Of a stretch of DNA of 64,000 nt, positions 35,944 to 62,989 are shown piece after piece. The stretch is from assembly GCA_963575745.1 (NCBI GenBank), contig CAUYUJ010001754.1:1-64000 (forward strand). Reading direction: 5' to 3'. The notes beneath the pieces are model-generated. The model was not told the DNA's origin, ran no database searches, and saw only the letters and a list, made by a program, of their open reading frames with translations. This DNA is from Prorocentrum cordatum (lineage: Eukaryota; Sar; Dinophyceae; Prorocentrales; Prorocentraceae). How positions within the stretch are numbered: the first letter of the stretch is position 1; each line of letters begins with the position of its first letter. The position numbers were made by a program, and so were the translations under genes.

Positions 35944-37327
35944 TCAGTCGGAACTCGCCTCCGCGACCGAGACAAATGCATGCTGACCAGACCCGTCCAC
36001 GCTTTGAATGAGAGAAACGCGCTCAACACACGCCTCCGAAGGCGTCGTTGCATCCATGTGATCATCCTCTCCAAGCAGCCCTCCGACGGCAAAGCCAGTG
36101 TGCCCAAGATGCCTGACGTAGAAATTCAAATACGAGAGGCCCTGCTGCGTGATCCCATGGACAACCTTCAATTCGACCTTCCCGATTTTCATCCAATCCG
36201 GATGTGCCTCGTGCATACCCTGATGAGGGGGGAACGGTTAAGGGTACCGGCTCAGGGGGGAGGACATCGAGCTGGGTTGGCGATACATCGCCGATGGATC
36301 GGCGAGTGGCCCCAGATAGCCAACCCGGACATACCTGCGTAGGTTGGACTAGTCGGACCGAGGACAGAAGAACGTCGTCCAAGAACATGAGACCATCCGC
36401 TGGCCAAACTACACAGAACAGCCAAGCAACCTCCCCAGGATGCACAAGAACAGAACATCAGGGCACCTTCCCCGAACCGAATTCGATCTTAGACCTCGGT
36501 CCGACTGTAGCCCCCACCGGCGATGAATGGGCGATTGAGGTCGATGCGTCCTGCCTGAGCCTGGCCCCTAACGTGGCCCCCGACCTGGGCGCGGAAGAAG
36601 AGGCCGCCGCTCTCCTCCGCCTCCAGAAGGCTGAAACCGCTGGCCCGCTGCGCCTCCACCCACACCCCCGTGATGTTCAGCGCCTGGAAGTACATGTCCG
36701 CACACTGCCCACCCAGCCGGCGTGCCTCGGCCTCGACGCGAAGCAGCGCGCTTTCGGCGGGGTCTCCCCGCGGAATGTGGATCAGGACGTGCCTGCCGGG
36801 CCTCTGTAGGAGAGGAGCAGCAGCGGCATAAACGTACACTGTCGGAGGACAGCGCGGATTTTTTGAGATCGGCGCTGAACCCCCCCTCCCTGGCGCGTGG
36901 AAGTCGCCCAGCGCCGATCCGTAGAATGCGCGCGGAGCTCTGAAAGCGCATGCTACGTGTGCTTCTCTCCGCCGAGCCTCATCAGGTCGAACTTCTCGCC
37001 GTGGACGTTCTGCAGGTGCGGGTCGCCGGTGGCGCTGGCTCCGGTGGGCGGCGGCAGCCCTCCCCCCGTGGGACCCGTGGGCCCCCAGCCTGGAGGGTAG
37101 GTGGGGGTGGCAGCGCGCTGGGGCGTCGCGCTCGCCCCGTCGGCGAGGTCCGGCACGCTGCTGTCCTCGACGTAGAGCGATTCGGAGGTGGCCCCGTGGA
37201 GCACGTCGGGGGGGTGCTCGAAGGCGAAGGTCGCGAAGGAGGGCCCCTCGTCGGAGCTCATCGGCACCTGGAAGGACGCGGCGGGCGCGCAGAGGCCGAG
37301 CAGCGCCACCGGCCACGCGGTCCACAT
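35944..37327 (-). CDS. Secreted vWD-like protein, three exons
   Basis: Exon 1 (37,327-36,978) begins MWTAWPVALLGLCAPAASFQ, a good signal peptide, and ends in GDPHLQNVHGEKFDLM, like the start of a von Willebrand factor type D domain (GDPH-x-x-x-x-G-x-x-FD). Exon 2 (36,801-36,585) gives PGRHVLIHIPRGDPAESALL and ARRLGGQCADMYFQALNITG. Exon 3 (36,177-35,944) gives VELKVVHGITQQGLSYLNFY and GFAVGGLLGEDDHMDATTPS, then a stop. Both junctions keep frame: ATGAG|GC with AGAG|GCCC, and CCCAG|GTCG with GGAAG|GTCG. The product is about 265 residues and is probably exported or membrane-lumenal. I recall similar short vWD-like proteins as multicopy in dinoflagellates; the role is unknown. Both introns are foldback elements. 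Confidence 0.78.
36178..36584 (-). mobile_element. Intron 2 of the vWD-like gene: foldback element, family B
   Basis: The 407-bp intron holds an inverted repeat from about 36,557 to 36,249. Outer ends are GGCTCAGG...CATCGA and TCGATG...CCTGAGCC, and inner ends AGTCGGACCGAGG and CCTCGGTCCGACT. The CATCGCCGATNNATCGGCGA core and GGCTCAGGGGGG end recur at 41,113-41,397 and 50,213-50,385. Confidence 0.75.
36802..36977 (-). mobile_element. Intron 1 of the vWD-like gene: foldback element, family A
   Basis: The 176-bp GC-AG intron is dominated by an inverted repeat (about 36,846-36,945): an arm with CGGAGGACAGCGCGGATTTT...ATCGGCGCTG pairs with CAGCGCCGATCCGTAG...GCGCGGAGCTCTGAAAG. The same element with the same flanks recurs in the intron at 37,864-38,080. 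Confidence 0.8.
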
Positions 37328-37639
37328 CGCTGCCTTCTGGGCGGCCCTCTGGCGGAGCGGATCGAAATAGAGAGGCGCTGCTGTATGCAGTGTGCAGGAG
37401 TGTGCGCTGCGTCTCGAGGAGGGTGGCAACGAGCAGCAGGCGGGCGGCGATGTGGAGAAAGGCGAGAGGGACGAGGAGGAAGGAGGATGACAGAGGAGTG
37501 TAGGGAGGAGGGACGACGCAGGAGGTTGAAAGGAAGGACGGAGGAGGGAGGGAGGAAGGAGGGAGGGAGGGGGAGGGAGCGGAGGGTGAAAGCAGGGCGA
37601 AGGGCATTTGGCCCCACGGACAAGGATGACCCAAAAGAC

Positions 37640-38102
37640 TCCCCCTGCCCCTCGCCCTGATCCACCTTCAGACACTCGCCTCCCCCATCAAGGAACATCT
37701 TGGGCATGCGTGCCATGTGTTCTCGTATAGTCTCGTCGTTCCCATTGCTCGTCCTGCCCCTCCCGTGGGCCCCCCAAAATGTCATCCTTTCAATCATCTG
37801 ACTCCCTGTCCTCCCCCCCATCCTCGCTCTTCAACGCTCCTTTCCAAAACTTCCCCACGTGGCCTGCGGCACGCGTGCAACCTGGTCGGACGTGGGTTGG
37901 CGCCAACAGAAGAAAAACAACAACACAGACAGGAACGTTCGGAGATCCGTGCGGATTTCTTGGATCGACGCTGGATCCCCATCCCTGGCGCCGAAGGGGC
38001 CCAGCGCCGATCCATGAAATCGAGGCTTAGCTCCGAAAGTCTATGCTTACGCAGATGCTCTTCCTCGAGTCTAACCCTGCCTCTGTCCAAGATCGGGCGC
38101 AA
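37640..38102 (-). CDS. Exons of an unrecognised spliced gene
   Basis: Minus-strand segments MRPILDRG (38,102-38,081), HVGKFWKGALKSEDGGEDRE (from 37,863) and NDETIREHMARMPKMFLDGG (about 37,742-37,640) are protein-like. The first junction keeps frame across a 217-bp intron (38,080-37,864) with AGAG|GC donor side and GCAG|GC acceptor side. Start, end and the second junction are not resolved. No family is recognised. It lies upstream of the vWD-like gene on the same strand. Confidence 0.5.
37864..38080 (-). mobile_element. Intron with foldback element, family A second copy
   Basis: The inverted repeat (about 37,938-38,050) has arms GTTCGGAGATCCGTGCGGAT...GGATCGACGCTGG and CCAGCGCCGATCCATGAAAT...GCTCCGAAAG. 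It aligns to intron 1 of the vWD-like gene through both arms and through the outer flank (GAAGNNCANNTGCGTAGCAT-like). Confidence 0.75.
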
Positions 38103-41112: not shown

Positions 41113-41397
41113 AGGAACTGGCGCACAGGGACCAACGCAGACTTGGCGATCGGCGATACCCTGCCGATAGATCGGCGACAAGGCCCCGATGGCCAACCCC
41201 ACCGTTCCTGGTCTTGCCGTCGCTCGGACGTCCATTTCCGTTGCATTTGTCGGTTTCGTGCGTGTTTTTTTGCTCGATGGTCCAGGATGATCCTCGATGG
41301 TCCTCGCCGAGAAAAAAATACACACGTCCGAGCGATGCCAAGTGGTCCAGTGAGGAATGGGTGGTTGGGAGCTGATGCGCCCCCCCTGAGCCAGGCC
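41113..41397. mobile_element. Foldback element, family B
   Basis: Arms of about 130 bp face each other around AGGATGATCCT (about 41,283). Matching pieces include CTGGCGCACAGGG with CCCCCCTGAGCCAG, CAACCCCACCGTTCCTGG with CCACTTGG...CACCCA, and GTCGCTCGGACGT with ACGTCCGAGCGAT. It shares the CGATNNATCGGCGA core with the element in intron 2 of the vWD-like gene. Confidence 0.75.
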
Positions 41398-48349: not shown

Positions 48350-48590
48350 GGGGAGTAGAGGCCTCCTGGATGGGGTCGGAGTAGATGGGGTCGGAGGATC
48401 GCGCCGTATCGCCGATACATCGGCGATACATCGCCGATGCATCGGCGATGCATCGGCGACACCGGCGATGCATCGGCGACGCCAGCGTGGAGGAAATCGG
48501 GATCCGCATTGAGCCGCATCGCTGACGCATCGACGATGCGGCGCGATCCTCCGACTCCATCTACTCGGACCCCATCTAGGAGGCCTAGAG
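48350..48590. mobile_element. MITE-like foldback element, family C copy 1
   Basis: Terminal inverted repeats of about 60 bp: AGGCCTCCTGGATGGGGTC, then GGGGTCGGAGGATCGCGCC, mirrored by GGCGCGATCCTCCGACTCC and GACCCCATCTAGGAGGCCT. The core is built of CATCGGCGATGCATCGGCGA palindromes. Copies 2 and 3 lie within 2.2 kb. Confidence 0.88.
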
Positions 48591-49179: not shown

Positions 49180-49415
49180 GAGGCCTCCTAGAAGGGGTCC
49201 GAGTAAAAGGGGTCGGAGGATCGCACCGCATCGCCGATGCATCGGCGAAGCACCCGCGACGTCTGCGATGCGCCGGGGATGAGTCGGCGACGTCGGCGTG
49301 ACGTCGGCGTGGGGAAAATTGGGCTCCGCATCGAGCGCGTCGGCGAGGCATTGGCAATGCGGCGCGATCCTCCGACCCCATCTACTCGGACCCCGTCCAG
49401 GAGGCCTGGAAACGA
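49180..49415. mobile_element. MITE-like foldback element, family C copy 2
   Basis: Same ends (AGGCCTCCTAGAAGGGGTCC and GACCCCGTCCAGGAGGCCT), same GGGGTCGGAGGATCGCACC arm and a CATCGCCGATGCATCGGCGA core, about 235 bp in all. Confidence 0.88.
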
Positions 49416-50212
49416 GCTAGAGGGCATCTTGGCAGAAGCGGATCCTGGACCAAGGGGAGGCTTTCCTGGGGACACGTTCCCCATCCCGAGCCGTTTCTTG
49501 ACCGCCCCGGGAACCAGGAGAGGGCCCCACAGGGGCCGAAAACTGCGGAAGACCTCCATGGCAATGGCAGGGATTTGTGCACAATGTGTGGGGGATCGAG
49601 CTGCGGGGTCTTCGGCAGGCGGTGGGCACGGATATGTTTGCCCCCCCCCCCAAGGTGCGAATCTATCCGTAGCCACTGCCCGCCGAGGCCCCCGAAACTC
49701 GACCCCCAGGCGGCGGTTATGGTCAGGTCGGGCACGTCCCCCTACAGGCGGATTTTGGGCGAAACATTATCTATAGTCAAAGCACATTCAACAAAGATTC
49801 AAAAAGTCGTTCCCATACTAGTTCTGGACTATTCTTGAACATTCCCCATGTAGAGGGACAGGCCCGGCTGAAAGTTATGGATACATCCACGCCTCGGATC
49901 CAGGACCCCATCCCTCCAGGACCTTTTTCACACGACCAAAGTCTAGGGACACCTGCCAGTGAGTTCCTCTGGTACCTTCTTGGAGCGCGGCGGTGCCAAA
50001 AGCCGCTGCTGGCTCGTAATCAACAGCGACCTATACACCGCCACCCCGCTGTGAGGCCCAGAAACAAGCCTCTTTGGGGGGCGGGGGGTCCGTGACATCA
50101 TACACTTCTGTGGCGGACCCTTCGCCACTGCGGCTCCTTCTTGCCGCCCCTTTTCGCCTTCTTGTTGTCGCGCCCCTTCCTGTCCTCCTTCGGGGGGAAC
50201 GCCAAGGGGAGG
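49416..50212. other. Non-coding stretch
   Basis: No convincing coding segment and no strong repeat. GC falls near 49,740-49,860. Confidence 0.35.
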
Positions 50213-50385
50213 GACCACCTCAGGGGGGAAACATCGACCTGGAATCGACGATACATCGCCGATAGATCGGCGATAGGCCCCTGATAGCGAATCCGCACGT
50301 TCCTTGCCGGGGGTGGACCATCAGGCCCCTGTCGGCGATCGGTCGGCGGGTGGGGACCGATCGATGAACTCCCCCCCTGAGCCTG
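50213..50385. mobile_element. Foldback element, family B
   Basis: Ends CTCAGGGGGGAAACATCGA and TCGATGAACTCCCCCCCTGAG, inner GATAGGCCCCTGATAG and CCATCAGGCCCCTG, and centre CACGTTCCTTGCCGG. Same family as intron 2 of the vWD-like gene. Confidence 0.8.
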
Positions 50386-50399
50386 TCGCCCCCCGACGT

Positions 50400-50540
50400 T
50401 GCTAGAGGCTTTCCCTGTGGGGTCCGAATAGATGGGGTCGATCGCGCCGCGTCGACGAGACACCTCCGATGTACCGGCGACGTCAGCGATGCGGCCCCGC
50501 GATCCTCCGACCCCGCCTGGACCCCGCCTGGGATGCCCAG
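50400..50540. mobile_element. MITE-like foldback element, family C copy 3, degenerate
   Basis: AGAGGCTTTCCCTGTGGGGT, ATAGATGGGGTCGATCGCGC and GCGATCCTCCGACCCC keep the family C arms, but the core is shorter and the right end is altered. Confidence 0.7.
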
Positions 50541-51829
50541 GACTTGCCGCGGACTCCTGCGCGTCCGAGGAGGCGTCGGAAGCGGAAGCCTCCTCCTCCT
50601 CCTCGGCGCCGGACGAGGGCTCCGAGTCCGAGCCCATCGCGCCGCCGCGCTCGGCGGGCGCCGCCGCCAGGCAGCGGCCGGGGGCTCAGTCCTCCCCAGG
50701 CATCCCGCGGCCGGCAAGCCCAGCGGCGGGGCGCCACGGGCCGGCCCGCCACGGATGCGGGGCCGAGGGAGCGGCCCCCCCTCGTCAGCCAGGGCGACGC
50801 GGCGGCCCCCGGTTCTTTGGGAGGGCAGAAGGACCTGAATACCTGCCAGGCCATCCCAGCCGAACCCGAAGAACCAGATTTCGGGTTGGGGGCGGTACGG
50901 GTTCCATACGAGCGACGAGCAAGGACGGGGTTCACGCGAGATGACGTGGCGACCTTACGCGGTGGCCCAGAAGGGCCGCGAGCGCGGCACGCTGCAGTGG
51001 AGCCGAAGGCGCTTGCGCGCGACCTTGCGCGGCCAGCTTGCGCGCCACTGTCGGCGAAAACTAAATTTTCTGTGTCGTTCATCTGTTTTTTTTTGGGGGG
51101 GGTCCCATTTTCTCCGACGCCCCCCGCTGGGAATGGCGGGCAAGGTGGGGCCTTCTCGTTGGGTTTGGGTGGTTTGGTGGGTGGTGACTTCAGTGGAGGG
51201 CAAGAGAACCACCCTCATAATAAGCAGCCCGACAAGCTAAGCCCTTTTTGGCAAGCGCGCCCAAAATTGAATCGAACAGCGCAGGGCTGTCTAGAATATG
51301 CCCAGGGCCTTTTTACTAAACGGAGGTTGCGAATGTCGGGGTTTCCCCCCGTGGTTATACTCAACAATTTGTTCCCTGGCGGCGCGATGTGACAACTGTA
51401 TCATTAAGAGGCTGTGCGGCGAAAGCTGCCGTCCAGAACTACCCTTAGAATCGAGTTGGACATGCATGTAGCGTCTCAAAATGTATTTTTTTGGGGAAGC
51501 GTGTTTCGAAGGATGGCGATATTGGGTCCTGCCCGCCTCCCTACAAGGATGTCTCGGGTGCGCGCGGGGCCCTGGATCCACTCGCGCCCGACGCCCTCGA
51601 ATGAAAATACCGCCCCCTGAGCCACTTGACCTCGAGCCCCACGCCAAGCCCAGCGCGCCCAAGAAGCTTCAACCGCGCACGGCGCTTGAGGATGCGCGCG
51701 CCCCCCCCATTTCTTCTGCGAGGCCGTCGTCGCCGCGCAGGGCGCCCATGAAGTCGAAACGCTCGTTGTAGAGGCCCCATCTGCAAACCTTGGATTCTTG
51801 ATCATGGGCTTGACCGCGTGCTGCGATCG
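50541..51829. other. Undecided acidic frame and non-coding DNA
   Basis: Near 50,637-50,555 the minus strand reads MGSDSEPSSGAEEEEEASAS, while the plus strand reads EEASEAEASSSSSAPDEGSE. Either might be part of an exon. From 50,900 to 51,829 I see nothing gene-like. Confidence 0.35.
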
Positions 51830-59335: not shown

Positions 59336-59560
59336 TAAACCATACCATACCAAGCCATACCATACCAATACCTTACTATACCAATACCATACCAAGCCAT
59401 ACCAAGCCATACCATATCAATACCATACCATACCATACCAATACCATACCATACCATACCATACCAAGCCATACCATACCATACCAATACCATACCATAA
59501 CCCCTACCAAGCCATACCATACCAATACCATACCATACCAATACCCCTCCCACCCCTCCC
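59336..59560 (+). repeat. (CCATA)n pentanucleotide repeat
   Basis: CCATACCATACCAAGCCATA and CCAATACCATACC units. Confidence 0.95.
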
Positions 59561-60605
59561 ACCCCTCCAGGGAGGCCCCGCCTGAGCGAGGAGGGTATTC
59601 GCATCACCTGTTATTTCTCAGGTTTCGTGCCCCTCCCACCCCTCCAGGGAGGCCCCGCCTGAGCGAGGAGGGTATTCGCATCACCTGTTATTTACAGGTT
59701 TCGTGCCCCTCCCACCCCTCCAGGGAGGCCCCGCCTGAGCGAGGAGGGTATTCGCATCACCTGTATTTATCAGGTTTCGTGCCCCTCCCACCCCTCCAGG
59801 GAGGCCCCGCCTGAGCGAGGAGGGTATTCGCATCACCTGTATTTATCAGGTTTCGTGCCCCTCCCACCCCTCCAGGGAGGCCCCGCCTGAGCGAGGAGGG
59901 TATTCGCATCACCTGTTATTTATCAGGTTTCGTGCCCCTCCCACCCCTCCAGGGAGGCCCCGCCTGAGCGAGGAGGGTATTCGCATCACCTGTTATTTAT
60001 CAGGTTTCGTGCCCCTCCCACCCCTCCAGGGAGGCCCCGCCTGAGCGAGGAGGGTATTCGCATCACCTGTTATTTCTCAGGTTTCGTGCCCCTCCCACCC
60101 CTCCAGGGAGGCCCCGCCTGAGCGAGGAGGGTATTCGAATCACCTGTTATTTATCAGGTTTCGTGCCCCTCCCACCCCTCCAGGGAGGCCCCGTCTGAGC
60201 GAGGAGGGTATTCGCATCACCTGTTATTTATCAGGTTTCGTGCCCCTCCCACCCCTCCAGGGAGGTCCCGCCTGAGCGAGGAGGGTATTCGCATCACCTG
60301 TTATTTATCAGGTTTCGTGCCCTTCCCACCCCATCCAGGGAGGCCCCGCCTGAGCGAGGAGGGTATTCGCATCACCTGTTATTTCTCAGGTTTCGTGCCC
60401 CTCCCACCCCTCCAGGGAGGCCCCGCCTGAGCGAGGACGCTATTCGAACACAGTGTTATTTATCAGATTTCCTGCCCCTCCCACCCTCCAGGGAGGCCCC
60501 GTCTGAGCGAGGAGGGTATTCGCGAACAGTGCTATTTATCAGGTTCCGTGCCCGTCCCACCCCTCCAGGGAAGCCCCGCATGAGCGAGGAGGGTATTCGC
60601 AAACC
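59556..60605 (+). repeat. 77-bp satellite array 1, about 14 copies
   Basis: Unit of 76-78 bp: CCCCTCCCACCCCTCCAGGG, AGGCCCCGCCTGAGCGAGG, AGGGTATTCGCATCACCTG, TTATTTATCAGGTTTCGTG. Units differ mainly by one-base indels in TTATTTATC. The last three are more diverged. Confidence 0.95.
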
Positions 60606-60775
60606 ATGTGATAGAAAAGGATGGAGAGGGCGAGGGCAGGTCGGCAATTTCTCTACAAAATGTTGCTTGATCCCGCTAGCCCAAAAACATCATTATGTGG
60701 GGAACTCCGTTAGCATAATTTTATTTGTATTATTTTTGGTATTATTGTACTTCTTGCCTTTTGGGGCAAGCTGAC

Positions 60776-60945: not shown

Positions 60946-61084
60946 ATCATGATTCGCACTCTTATTTTTCCCAACCATCCTGTGGTGTTGGGTCCTCGTT
61001 TTGAAGAGACGGTGCCCCGCGTTTCTCCTCCTCCTCGCCCTCCTCCCCCTCCTTGCCTCTGCTCTCGGCACACCTCTCACGCGT

Positions 61085-62885
61085 TTCGTAGCCCCATAGG
61101 GAACTCCACCGAAGGCCCCAGTGGGGGTGTCCACATGCGGTTCCCCCACCCAGGGCAGCGTTTCGTAGGCCCCATAGGGAGCTCCACCGAAGGCCCCAGA
61201 GGGGGTGTCCACATGCGGTTCCCCCACCCAGGGCAGCGTTTCGTAGCCCCATAGGGAGCTCCACCGAAGGCCCCAGTGGGGTGTCGCATGCGGTTCCCCC
61301 ACCCAGGGCAGCGTTTCGTGGCCCCATAGGGAGCTCCACCGAAGGCCCCAGTGGGGGTGTCCACATGCGGTTCCCCCACCCAGGGCAGCGTTTCGTGGCC
61401 CCAGAGGGAGCTCCACCGAAGGCCCCGGTGGGGGTGCCCGCATGCGGTTCCCCCACCCAGGGCAGCGCTTCGTAGCCCCACTCCACCGAAGGTGGGGGTG
61501 TCCACATGCGGTTCCCCCACCCAGGCGTAGCCCCAGAGGGAGCTCCACCGAAGGCCCCAGTGGGGGTTCGCATGCGGTTCCCCCACCCAGGGCAGCGTTT
61601 CGTAGCCCCAGAGGGAGCTCCACCGAAGGCCCCAGTGGGGGTGTCCACATGCGGTTCCCCCACCCAGGGCAGCGTTTCGTAGCCCCATAGGGAGCTCCAC
61701 CGAAGGCCCCAGTGGGGGTGTCCACATGCGGTTCCCCCACCCAGGGCAGCGTTTCGTAGCCCCATAGGGAGCTCCACCGAAGGCCCCAGTGGGGGTGTCC
61801 ACATGCGGTTCCCCCACCCAGGGCAGCGTTTCGTGGCCCCATAGGGAGCTCCACCGAAGGCCCCAGTGGGGGTGTCCACATGCGGTTCCCCCACCCAGGG
61901 CAGCGTTTCGTAGCCCCATAGGGAGCTCCACCGAAGGCCCCAGTGGGGGTGTCCACATGCGGTTCCCCCACCCAGGGCAGCGTTTCGTGGCCCCATAGGG
62001 AGCTCCACCGAAGGCCCCAGTGGGGGTGTCCACATGCGGTTCCCCCACCCAGGGCAGCGTTTCGTGGCCCCATAGGGAGCTCCACCGAAGGCCCCAGTGG
62101 GGGTGTCCACATGCGGTTCCCCCACCCAGGGCAGCGTTTCGTAGCCCCATAGGGAGCTCCACCGAAGGCCCCAGTGGGGGTGTCCACATGCGGTTCCCCC
62201 ACCCAGGGCAGCGTTTCGTAGCCCCATAGGGAGCTCCACCGAAGGCCCCAGTGGGGGTGTCCGCATGCGGTTCCCCCACCCAGGGCAGCGTTTCGTAGCC
62301 CCATAGGGAGCTCCACCGAAGGCCCCAGTGGGGGTGTCCACATGCGGTTCCCCCACCCAGGGCAGCGTTTCGTGGCCCCATAGGGAGCTCCACCGAAGGC
62401 CCCAGTGGGGGTGTCCACATGCGGTTCCCCCACCCAGGGCAGCGTTTCGTAGCCCCATAGGGAGCTCCACCGAAGGCCCCAGTGGGGGTGTCCACATGCG
62501 GTTCCCCCACCCAGGGCAGCGTTTCGTAGCCCCAGAGGGAGCTCCACCGAAGGCCCCAGTGGGGGTGTCCACATGCGGTTCCCCCACCCAGGGCAGCGTT
62601 TCGTAGCCCCATAGGGAGCTCCACCGTAGGCCCCAGTGGGGCTGCCCTCATGCGGTTCCCCCACCCAGGGCAGCGTTTCGTAGCCCCAGAGGGAGCTCCA
62701 CCGTAGGCCCCAGTGGGGGTGCCCGCATGCGGTTCCCCCACCCAGGGCAGCGTTTCGTAGCCTCACAGGGAGCTCCACCGAAGGCCCCAGTGGGGCTGCC
62801 TGCATGCGGTTCCCCCACCCAGGGCAGCGTTTCGTAGCCCCAGAGGGAGCTCCACCGAAGGCCCCAGTGGGGGTGTTCGCATGCG
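61085..62885 (+). repeat. 77-bp satellite array 2, about 23 copies
   Basis: Unit of exactly 77 bp in most copies: AGGGAGCTCCACCGAAGGCC, CCAGTGGGGGTGTCCACATG, CGGTTCCCCCACCCAGGGCA, GCGTTTCGTAGCCCCAT. Some units are shortened (61,480-61,560). Because 77 is not a multiple of three, each minus-strand reading cycles through three peptides, and all three minus frames remain open for about 540-660 codons. Translation is not supported by any other evidence. Confidence 0.97.
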
Positions 62886-62989
62886 TCTCCACTACCCAGA
62901 GGTAGCGCCGCCGAAAACGATATTCACACTTGCGGTATTCACAGTTGCATATGGTTGGGTCCTTCGCCAGGCTAATTTTATTTCCAGTA

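Follow-up and report, generated by a model that had tools for sequence, protein, structure and literature searches.

Two probable introners of different foldback families in one gene copy of the dinoflagellate Prorocentrum cordatum

Background

Introner elements have already been reported from the genome of Prorocentrum cordatum, where they were defined by a pattern search (PMC10666404). The passages of that paper that concern us describe a genome of 4.15 Gb with 59.7% GC, in which 51.4% of donors are GC, 24.7% are GT, and 79.7% of acceptors are AGG. Related systems are known from other dinoflagellates. The introners of Symbiodinium microadriaticum are described with terminal inverted repeats and 4-bp duplications, the 3' splice-site side coming from the element and the 5' site from the target duplication (PMC9860276). 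Those of Amoebophrya are described as introns that fold into hairpins and carry direct repeats of 3-5 nt across the exon borders; for the most part they belong to a subset of introns whose splice sites are non-canonical (PMC7789003). Roy et al. 2023 reportedly analysed introner families in five dinoflagellate genomes and, as summarized in PMC11453091, these are many, recently gained, and present several to a genome.

The two introns we describe here are closest to these systems. They share terminal inverted repeats, boundary direct repeats, GC or GT donors and AGG acceptors with the published P. cordatum introners (PMC10666404). The inverted repeats, the short target duplication and the division of the splice sites between element and target are as described for S. 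microadriaticum, but the duplication is 5 nt rather than 4 bp, a comparison made by description and not by sequence (PMC9860276). They are hairpin introns with short direct repeats over the exon borders as in Amoebophrya (PMC7789003), but the splice sites in our set are GC-AG, GT-AG and GA-AG. As in the genomes of Roy et al. 2023, more than one family is at work in one genome (PMC11453091). It is important to realize that introner-type intron gain is already in print for dinoflagellates, P. cordatum included, and that what we offer is a well-supported new example. Where PMC10666404, in the passages we cite, defines elements by a pattern search, we can assign named copies to families and give their 5-nt target duplications, their nesting and the paralogous sites that are empty. 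In the passages cited here we saw no description of these two families.

Results

A gene in three pieces

The window, meaning the whole stretch of 64,000 nucleotides that was analysed, lies at the start of a contig of 97 kb and has a GC content of about 60%. The assembly that was searched comprises 4.13 Gb in 21,875 contigs. Loci fetched from it carry L numbers below, and the features of the window are collected in Table 1.

Table 1. Gene structure and foldback elements discussed in the text, in window coordinates
Feature	Position	Strand	Remarks
Exon 1	36978..37327	-	begins with the ATG at 37327; hydrophobic leader at the N-terminus; GDPHL domain begins here
Intron 1	36802..36977	-	GC-AG, 176 nt; family-1 foldback element from end to end
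Exon 2	36585..36801	-	
Intron 2, corrected	36220..36584	-	GT-AG, 365 nt; family-2 foldback element from end to end
Element nested in intron 2	36351..36505 (approximate ends)	-	second inverted-repeat element, inside the family-2 element
Exon 3	35944..36219	-	holds the stop codon (ending 35944); begins 42 nt earlier than first drawn
Upstream foldback	37909..38068	-	family 1; upstream of the gene; proposed earlier as a third intron (38080-37864)
Family-2 copy, 41.1 kb	41113..41397	-	another inverted-repeat element nested in it
Family-2 copy, 50 kb	50194..50402	-	un-nested
Family-2 element ends			TCAGGGGCAACG..CGTTGCCCCTCA

The gene on the minus strand (37327-35944) encodes a secreted-looking product of 280 aa. 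A Pfam search of it gave just one match, DUF3303, which is below threshold, and a Pfam search of five paralogs gave none. A weak PDB match, to Fc fragment of IgG binding protein (E 0.0022), was obtained. Together with the GDPHL motif, which is typical of VWD domains, this match suggests a VWD-like domain, an assignment on which we do not rely.

A single open frame is regained once 36977-36802 and a second stretch starting at 36584 are removed. Both elements are flanked by AG|G, and their removal leaves 280 codons that match paralogs on either side of each junction, with no further frameshift or stop. This argues against the idea that the gene is a pseudogene whose frame was broken by unspliced insertions. 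The idea does draw on the facts that no transcript was seen and that 143 scored relatives manage without the elements, but the same families also occupy frame-restoring sites in an ankyrin gene with eight introns, and we consider it highly improbable.

The ends of the introns

The earlier note proposed introns at 36977-36802 and 36584-36178. The first is borne out: its removal restores the frame, it folds well, and the paralogs lack it. The start of the second also stands, but its 3' end lies at 36220 and not at 36178, so 42 coding bases had been wrongly included. Bases 36219-36178 encode GMHEAHPDWMKIGK, and paralogs match these residues (for example GVHDEQPKW in L048). Because of this match we place the acceptor at TCATCAG, at 36220. 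Most of the fetched paralogs have residues after the end of exon 2 and ahead of VELKVVHG that the splice first drawn would drop.

These ends also fit the elements. Intron 1 has the 5-nt direct repeat GAGGC at each junction (36980-36976 and 36804-36800), within which its splice register is ambiguous. The repeat around intron 2 is not exact, with CCAGG (36588-36584) preceding the element and TCAGG (36223-36219) following it, 4 of 5 positions matching, and this arrangement agrees with the target-repeat frame of family 2. Intron 1 folds with a z of -3.38 (one of 200 shuffles is equally stable) and corrected intron 2 with a z of -3.31 (none of 100), while with the 3' end first drawn intron 2 folds less well (z -2.08, four of 100). 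The outermost pairs of the hairpins join nucleotides 2 and 176 of 176 in intron 1 and 4 and 358 of 365 in corrected intron 2. Pairing between the terminal 45 nt gives p 0.004 for intron 2 with the corrected end versus p 0.83 with the earlier one; for intron 1 this pairing taken alone gives only p 0.051.

Foldbacks are common in the window, with 26 loci of at least 40 bits against 0, 0, 0, 0, 0 and 1 in six shuffles. The mere presence of one in an intron therefore proves little; what matters is how well it fits the intron's ends.

This abundance is one reason to consider that old introns were later invaded by foldbacks, the intronless paralogs being retroposed copies that lost their introns. 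Retroposition of dinoflagellate genes is in print, reportedly in work by Song et al. in 2017, and the fourth intron of the ankyrin gene (below), I4, is unlike any other fetched sequence, nor is the pairing of its termini significant. Against this, the elements fill introns 1 and 2 from end to end with a target duplication straddling the splice sites. A later insertion would leave flanking intron sequence, so an element that fills the whole intron speaks against invasion. Both introns are also absent from all 29 fetched paralogs, which belong to several clades. We regard the invasion of old introns as very unlikely and continue with the reading that introns 1 and 2 are themselves inserted elements.

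Paralogs that lack both introns

The assembly was searched with the spliced protein as first drawn, and 144 of 6750 candidates were scored, including the window's own exon 1. The other 143 all read through the two intron sites in a single frame; 128 contain no stop and 15 contain one. Some are near-identical, so not all are independent. The 29 fetched paralogs likewise cross both junctions, 28 of them without a stop and L060 with one. The 30 fetched loci include the window itself, and its copy alone comes in three pieces. Absence of an intron from the gene's relatives, one mark of an introner, is thus found in every scored and every fetched copy, all of them in the same genome. L056 reads GATGAGGCCCGG at the first site, a single-copy site in which the window's flanks are joined. 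The nearest copy, L046 (71% identity), has neither intron and is sister to the window copy with moderate support (86/91) in a tree of the window copy and 28 of the fetched paralogs.

Since 143 other scored copies cross both sites in one frame, both introns were probably gained, and judging from these sequences gain in this gene copy is the most likely history, given a search that favours uninterrupted copies, under-samples intron-bearing paralogs and may include some retroposed intronless ones. The family of GDPHL-motif proteins (L046-L074) is seemingly very large, judging by the same search, and in places several copies lie on one contig.

Family 1

The earlier note held that intron 1 and the upstream foldback carry the same repeat, and comparison of the window with itself confirms it (74% over 113 nt, E 1.7e-10). 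Family 1, to which both belong, recurs in no fewer than 39 further places, none of them on the window's contig (40 scored of 895 candidates). The arms of intron 1 match the family profile, which includes the window copies, at 7.1e-10 and 5.4e-16. Both ends could be placed in 16 of the 41 copies tried, and 5 of these 16 have direct repeats of at least 5 nt against about 1.7 expected from mismatched pairs. We dropped the idea that family 1 inserts at TA, as the flanks indicate repeats of about 5 nt. No Pfam domain was found in two 10-kb family-1 loci, each searched on one strand (L042 minus, L043 plus). Codon-usage scoring of the flanks at 26 loci was too weak and was not used.

Family 2

Self-comparison also upholds the claim that intron 2 is related to copies at 41,113-41,397 and near 50.3 kb. 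A Pfam search of both strands from 41.5 to 51.4 kb of the window, which holds the 50-kb copy and flanks one side of the 41.1-kb copy, gave no match. Searching the assembly with the family-2 copy of the ankyrin gene scored 40 places of 3190 candidates, so that the family occurs in at least 39 other places, most of them matching positions 1-211 of 213 at 80-86%. All of the 39 but one, a partial match, were fetched together with flanks of 150 nt.

Target repeats were counted outward from the element ends TCAGGGG and CCCCTCA. At the best of 77 offset pairs, exact 5-nt repeats flank 10 of the 38 copies, where 0.08 would be expected; repeats matching in at least 4 of 5 positions flank 17, where 0.7 would be expected. 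A G follows the terminal CA in 16 of the 38, making CAG. Both families are short, have terminal inverted repeats and are present in many copies, as MITEs are. The constant-length target site duplication of MITEs is 5 nt in family 2; in family 1 its signal is weaker.

An ankyrin gene with introns of both families

Locus L041 holds an ankyrin-repeat gene in which removal of eight introns gives a 556-aa frame without a stop (Ank_2, E 1.8e-69). We chose this locus by hand, on account of a flank that looked like ankyrin sequence, so it is not a random sample, and its splice points were placed by eye using the reading frame and AG. Five of the eight introns belong to our two families: I1, I5 and I7 to family 1, the last of these by a single arm, and I3 and I8 to family 2. 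Two more, I2 and I6, match neither family but carry inverted repeats at their ends that test as significant (p 0.003 and 0.007). The terminal-pairing test was not significant for I4, I5, I7 and I8; the last three of these were assigned by similarity.

The ends of family 2, set at positions 1 and 211 of 213 by copies elsewhere, coincide with the ends of I3, while I5 is flush with its element at the 3' side only. Element ends that are also splice sites are therefore found in introns 1 and 2 and in ankyrin I3, and similar sequences stand as introns at unrelated sites in different genes for both families. The donors of this gene are GC, GT and GA, in agreement with those given for the species in the published passages (PMC10666404). 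When the window gene and the ankyrin gene are taken together, AG|G stands at both ends of 8 of the 10 introns. Direct repeats of at least 5 nt occur at 6 of these 8, versus 23.5% by chance (tail 0.003). The earlier note thought it unusual for two unrelated families to act in one small gene, a view that this single ankyrin gene, with introns of both, does not support.

A separate observation concerns positions 4909-5114 of L041. A 19-nt piece of exon (CACGAGGGCGC.GTGCTCG) recurs about 190 nt downstream, 18 of 19 positions alike, directly before a family-1 element. This may reflect a second insertion that left a long duplication, and given this repeat ahead of the element I5 could be two introns.

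The upstream foldback

The earlier note read all three foldbacks as introns of coding sequences, the third interrupting a sequence different from that of the first. The third is a real family-1 element and it folds well (z -3.09, 2 of 200 shuffles equally stable), which together with its kinship to intron 1 speaks for that reading. However, its hairpin spans nucleotides 15-172 of 217 and is not flush with the proposed intron ends, 45 nt lie between the outermost pair and the proposed acceptor, and terminal pairing with the proposed ends gives p 0.77. A further 537 nt separate the proposed end from the ATG at 37327 downstream, and inspection by eye of the joined frames around the element found no conserved protein, which leaves the third intron without coding support. 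We consider it quite unlikely that all three are coding introns. The upstream element may be intergenic or lie within an untranslated leader, where it could still be an intron.

Nested foldbacks

The element nested in intron 2 has relatives at L005, L022 and L012, the last in two places, one of them nested in another foldback. The 41.1-kb family-2 copy contains a different kind of nested inverted repeat (about 41213-41342), and other nested foldbacks lie at window 50836-51187, in L012 and in L021. The relative positions of these inserts in their outer elements are about 0.36-0.43 (intron 2), 0.29-0.46 (41.1 kb), 0.49-0.56 (L021), 0.47-0.52 (window 50836-51187), and 0.58 and 0.36 (both L012). 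All six counted inserts fall within or close to the central third of their outer elements, in a count that uses 5 of 21 listed rows (three for one insert) and leaves out 16 as ambiguous repeated-arm matches. Of the rows left out, two concern a single 380-nt insert (0.25/0.75), three concern inserts of 475-497 nt (positions 0.45, 0.51 and 0.28), and the other eleven concern inserts of 53-77 nt (0.13-0.80).

One could speculate that foldback introners attract further foldbacks into their loops, so that introns would grow from inside while the paired arms bearing the splice sites stay whole. We think this unlikely, as a post hoc reading made with a method that detects inserts near element ends poorly.

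The window also holds another foldback family, with two copies 79% alike at 48359-48586 and 49181-49407, each self-complementary over its full length. Self-comparison further reveals, at 59553-60612 and 61081-62907, long arrays in which a unit of about 77 bp is repeated in tandem.

Discussion

We believe that introns 1 and 2 are very probably introners, that is, MITE-type transposons that inserted into exons and would be removed by the spliceosome, with splicing as drawn predicted from the genomic sequence. The earlier proposal of introner-like gain is sustained for these two by intronless paralogs, dispersed families, flush ends, target duplications and recurrence in the ankyrin gene, but not for the third.

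The likely course of events can be sketched. A short non-autonomous DNA transposon, with terminal inverted repeats and no internal gene, would enter an exon of one copy of the family, presumably moved by an unseen transposase. Insertion would copy about 5 nt of the target and, where the target holds AG|G, both junctions would then read AG|G. If each target copy is cut at the equivalent point, the original message would be regained. The donor G would be the target's duplicated G, followed by element sequence, and the right-hand inverted repeat, which is rich in pyrimidines (..CCTCTCC in intron 1, ..CCCCTCA in family 2), would serve as the tract before the acceptor AG. The arms are predicted to pair end to end, and this hairpin may keep the splice sites together.

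If foldbacks do insert into the loops of others, intron 2 would be an intron of two layers, a family-2 element around another inverted-repeat element. Both families are now described right up to their ends, and for family 2 the target duplication is described as well; this gives a basis for genome-wide counts, for transcript checks and for a hunt for the transposase. One copy of this gene family would carry two transposon-made introns while scores of others keep the empty site, and this makes the family a clean natural test of intron gain.
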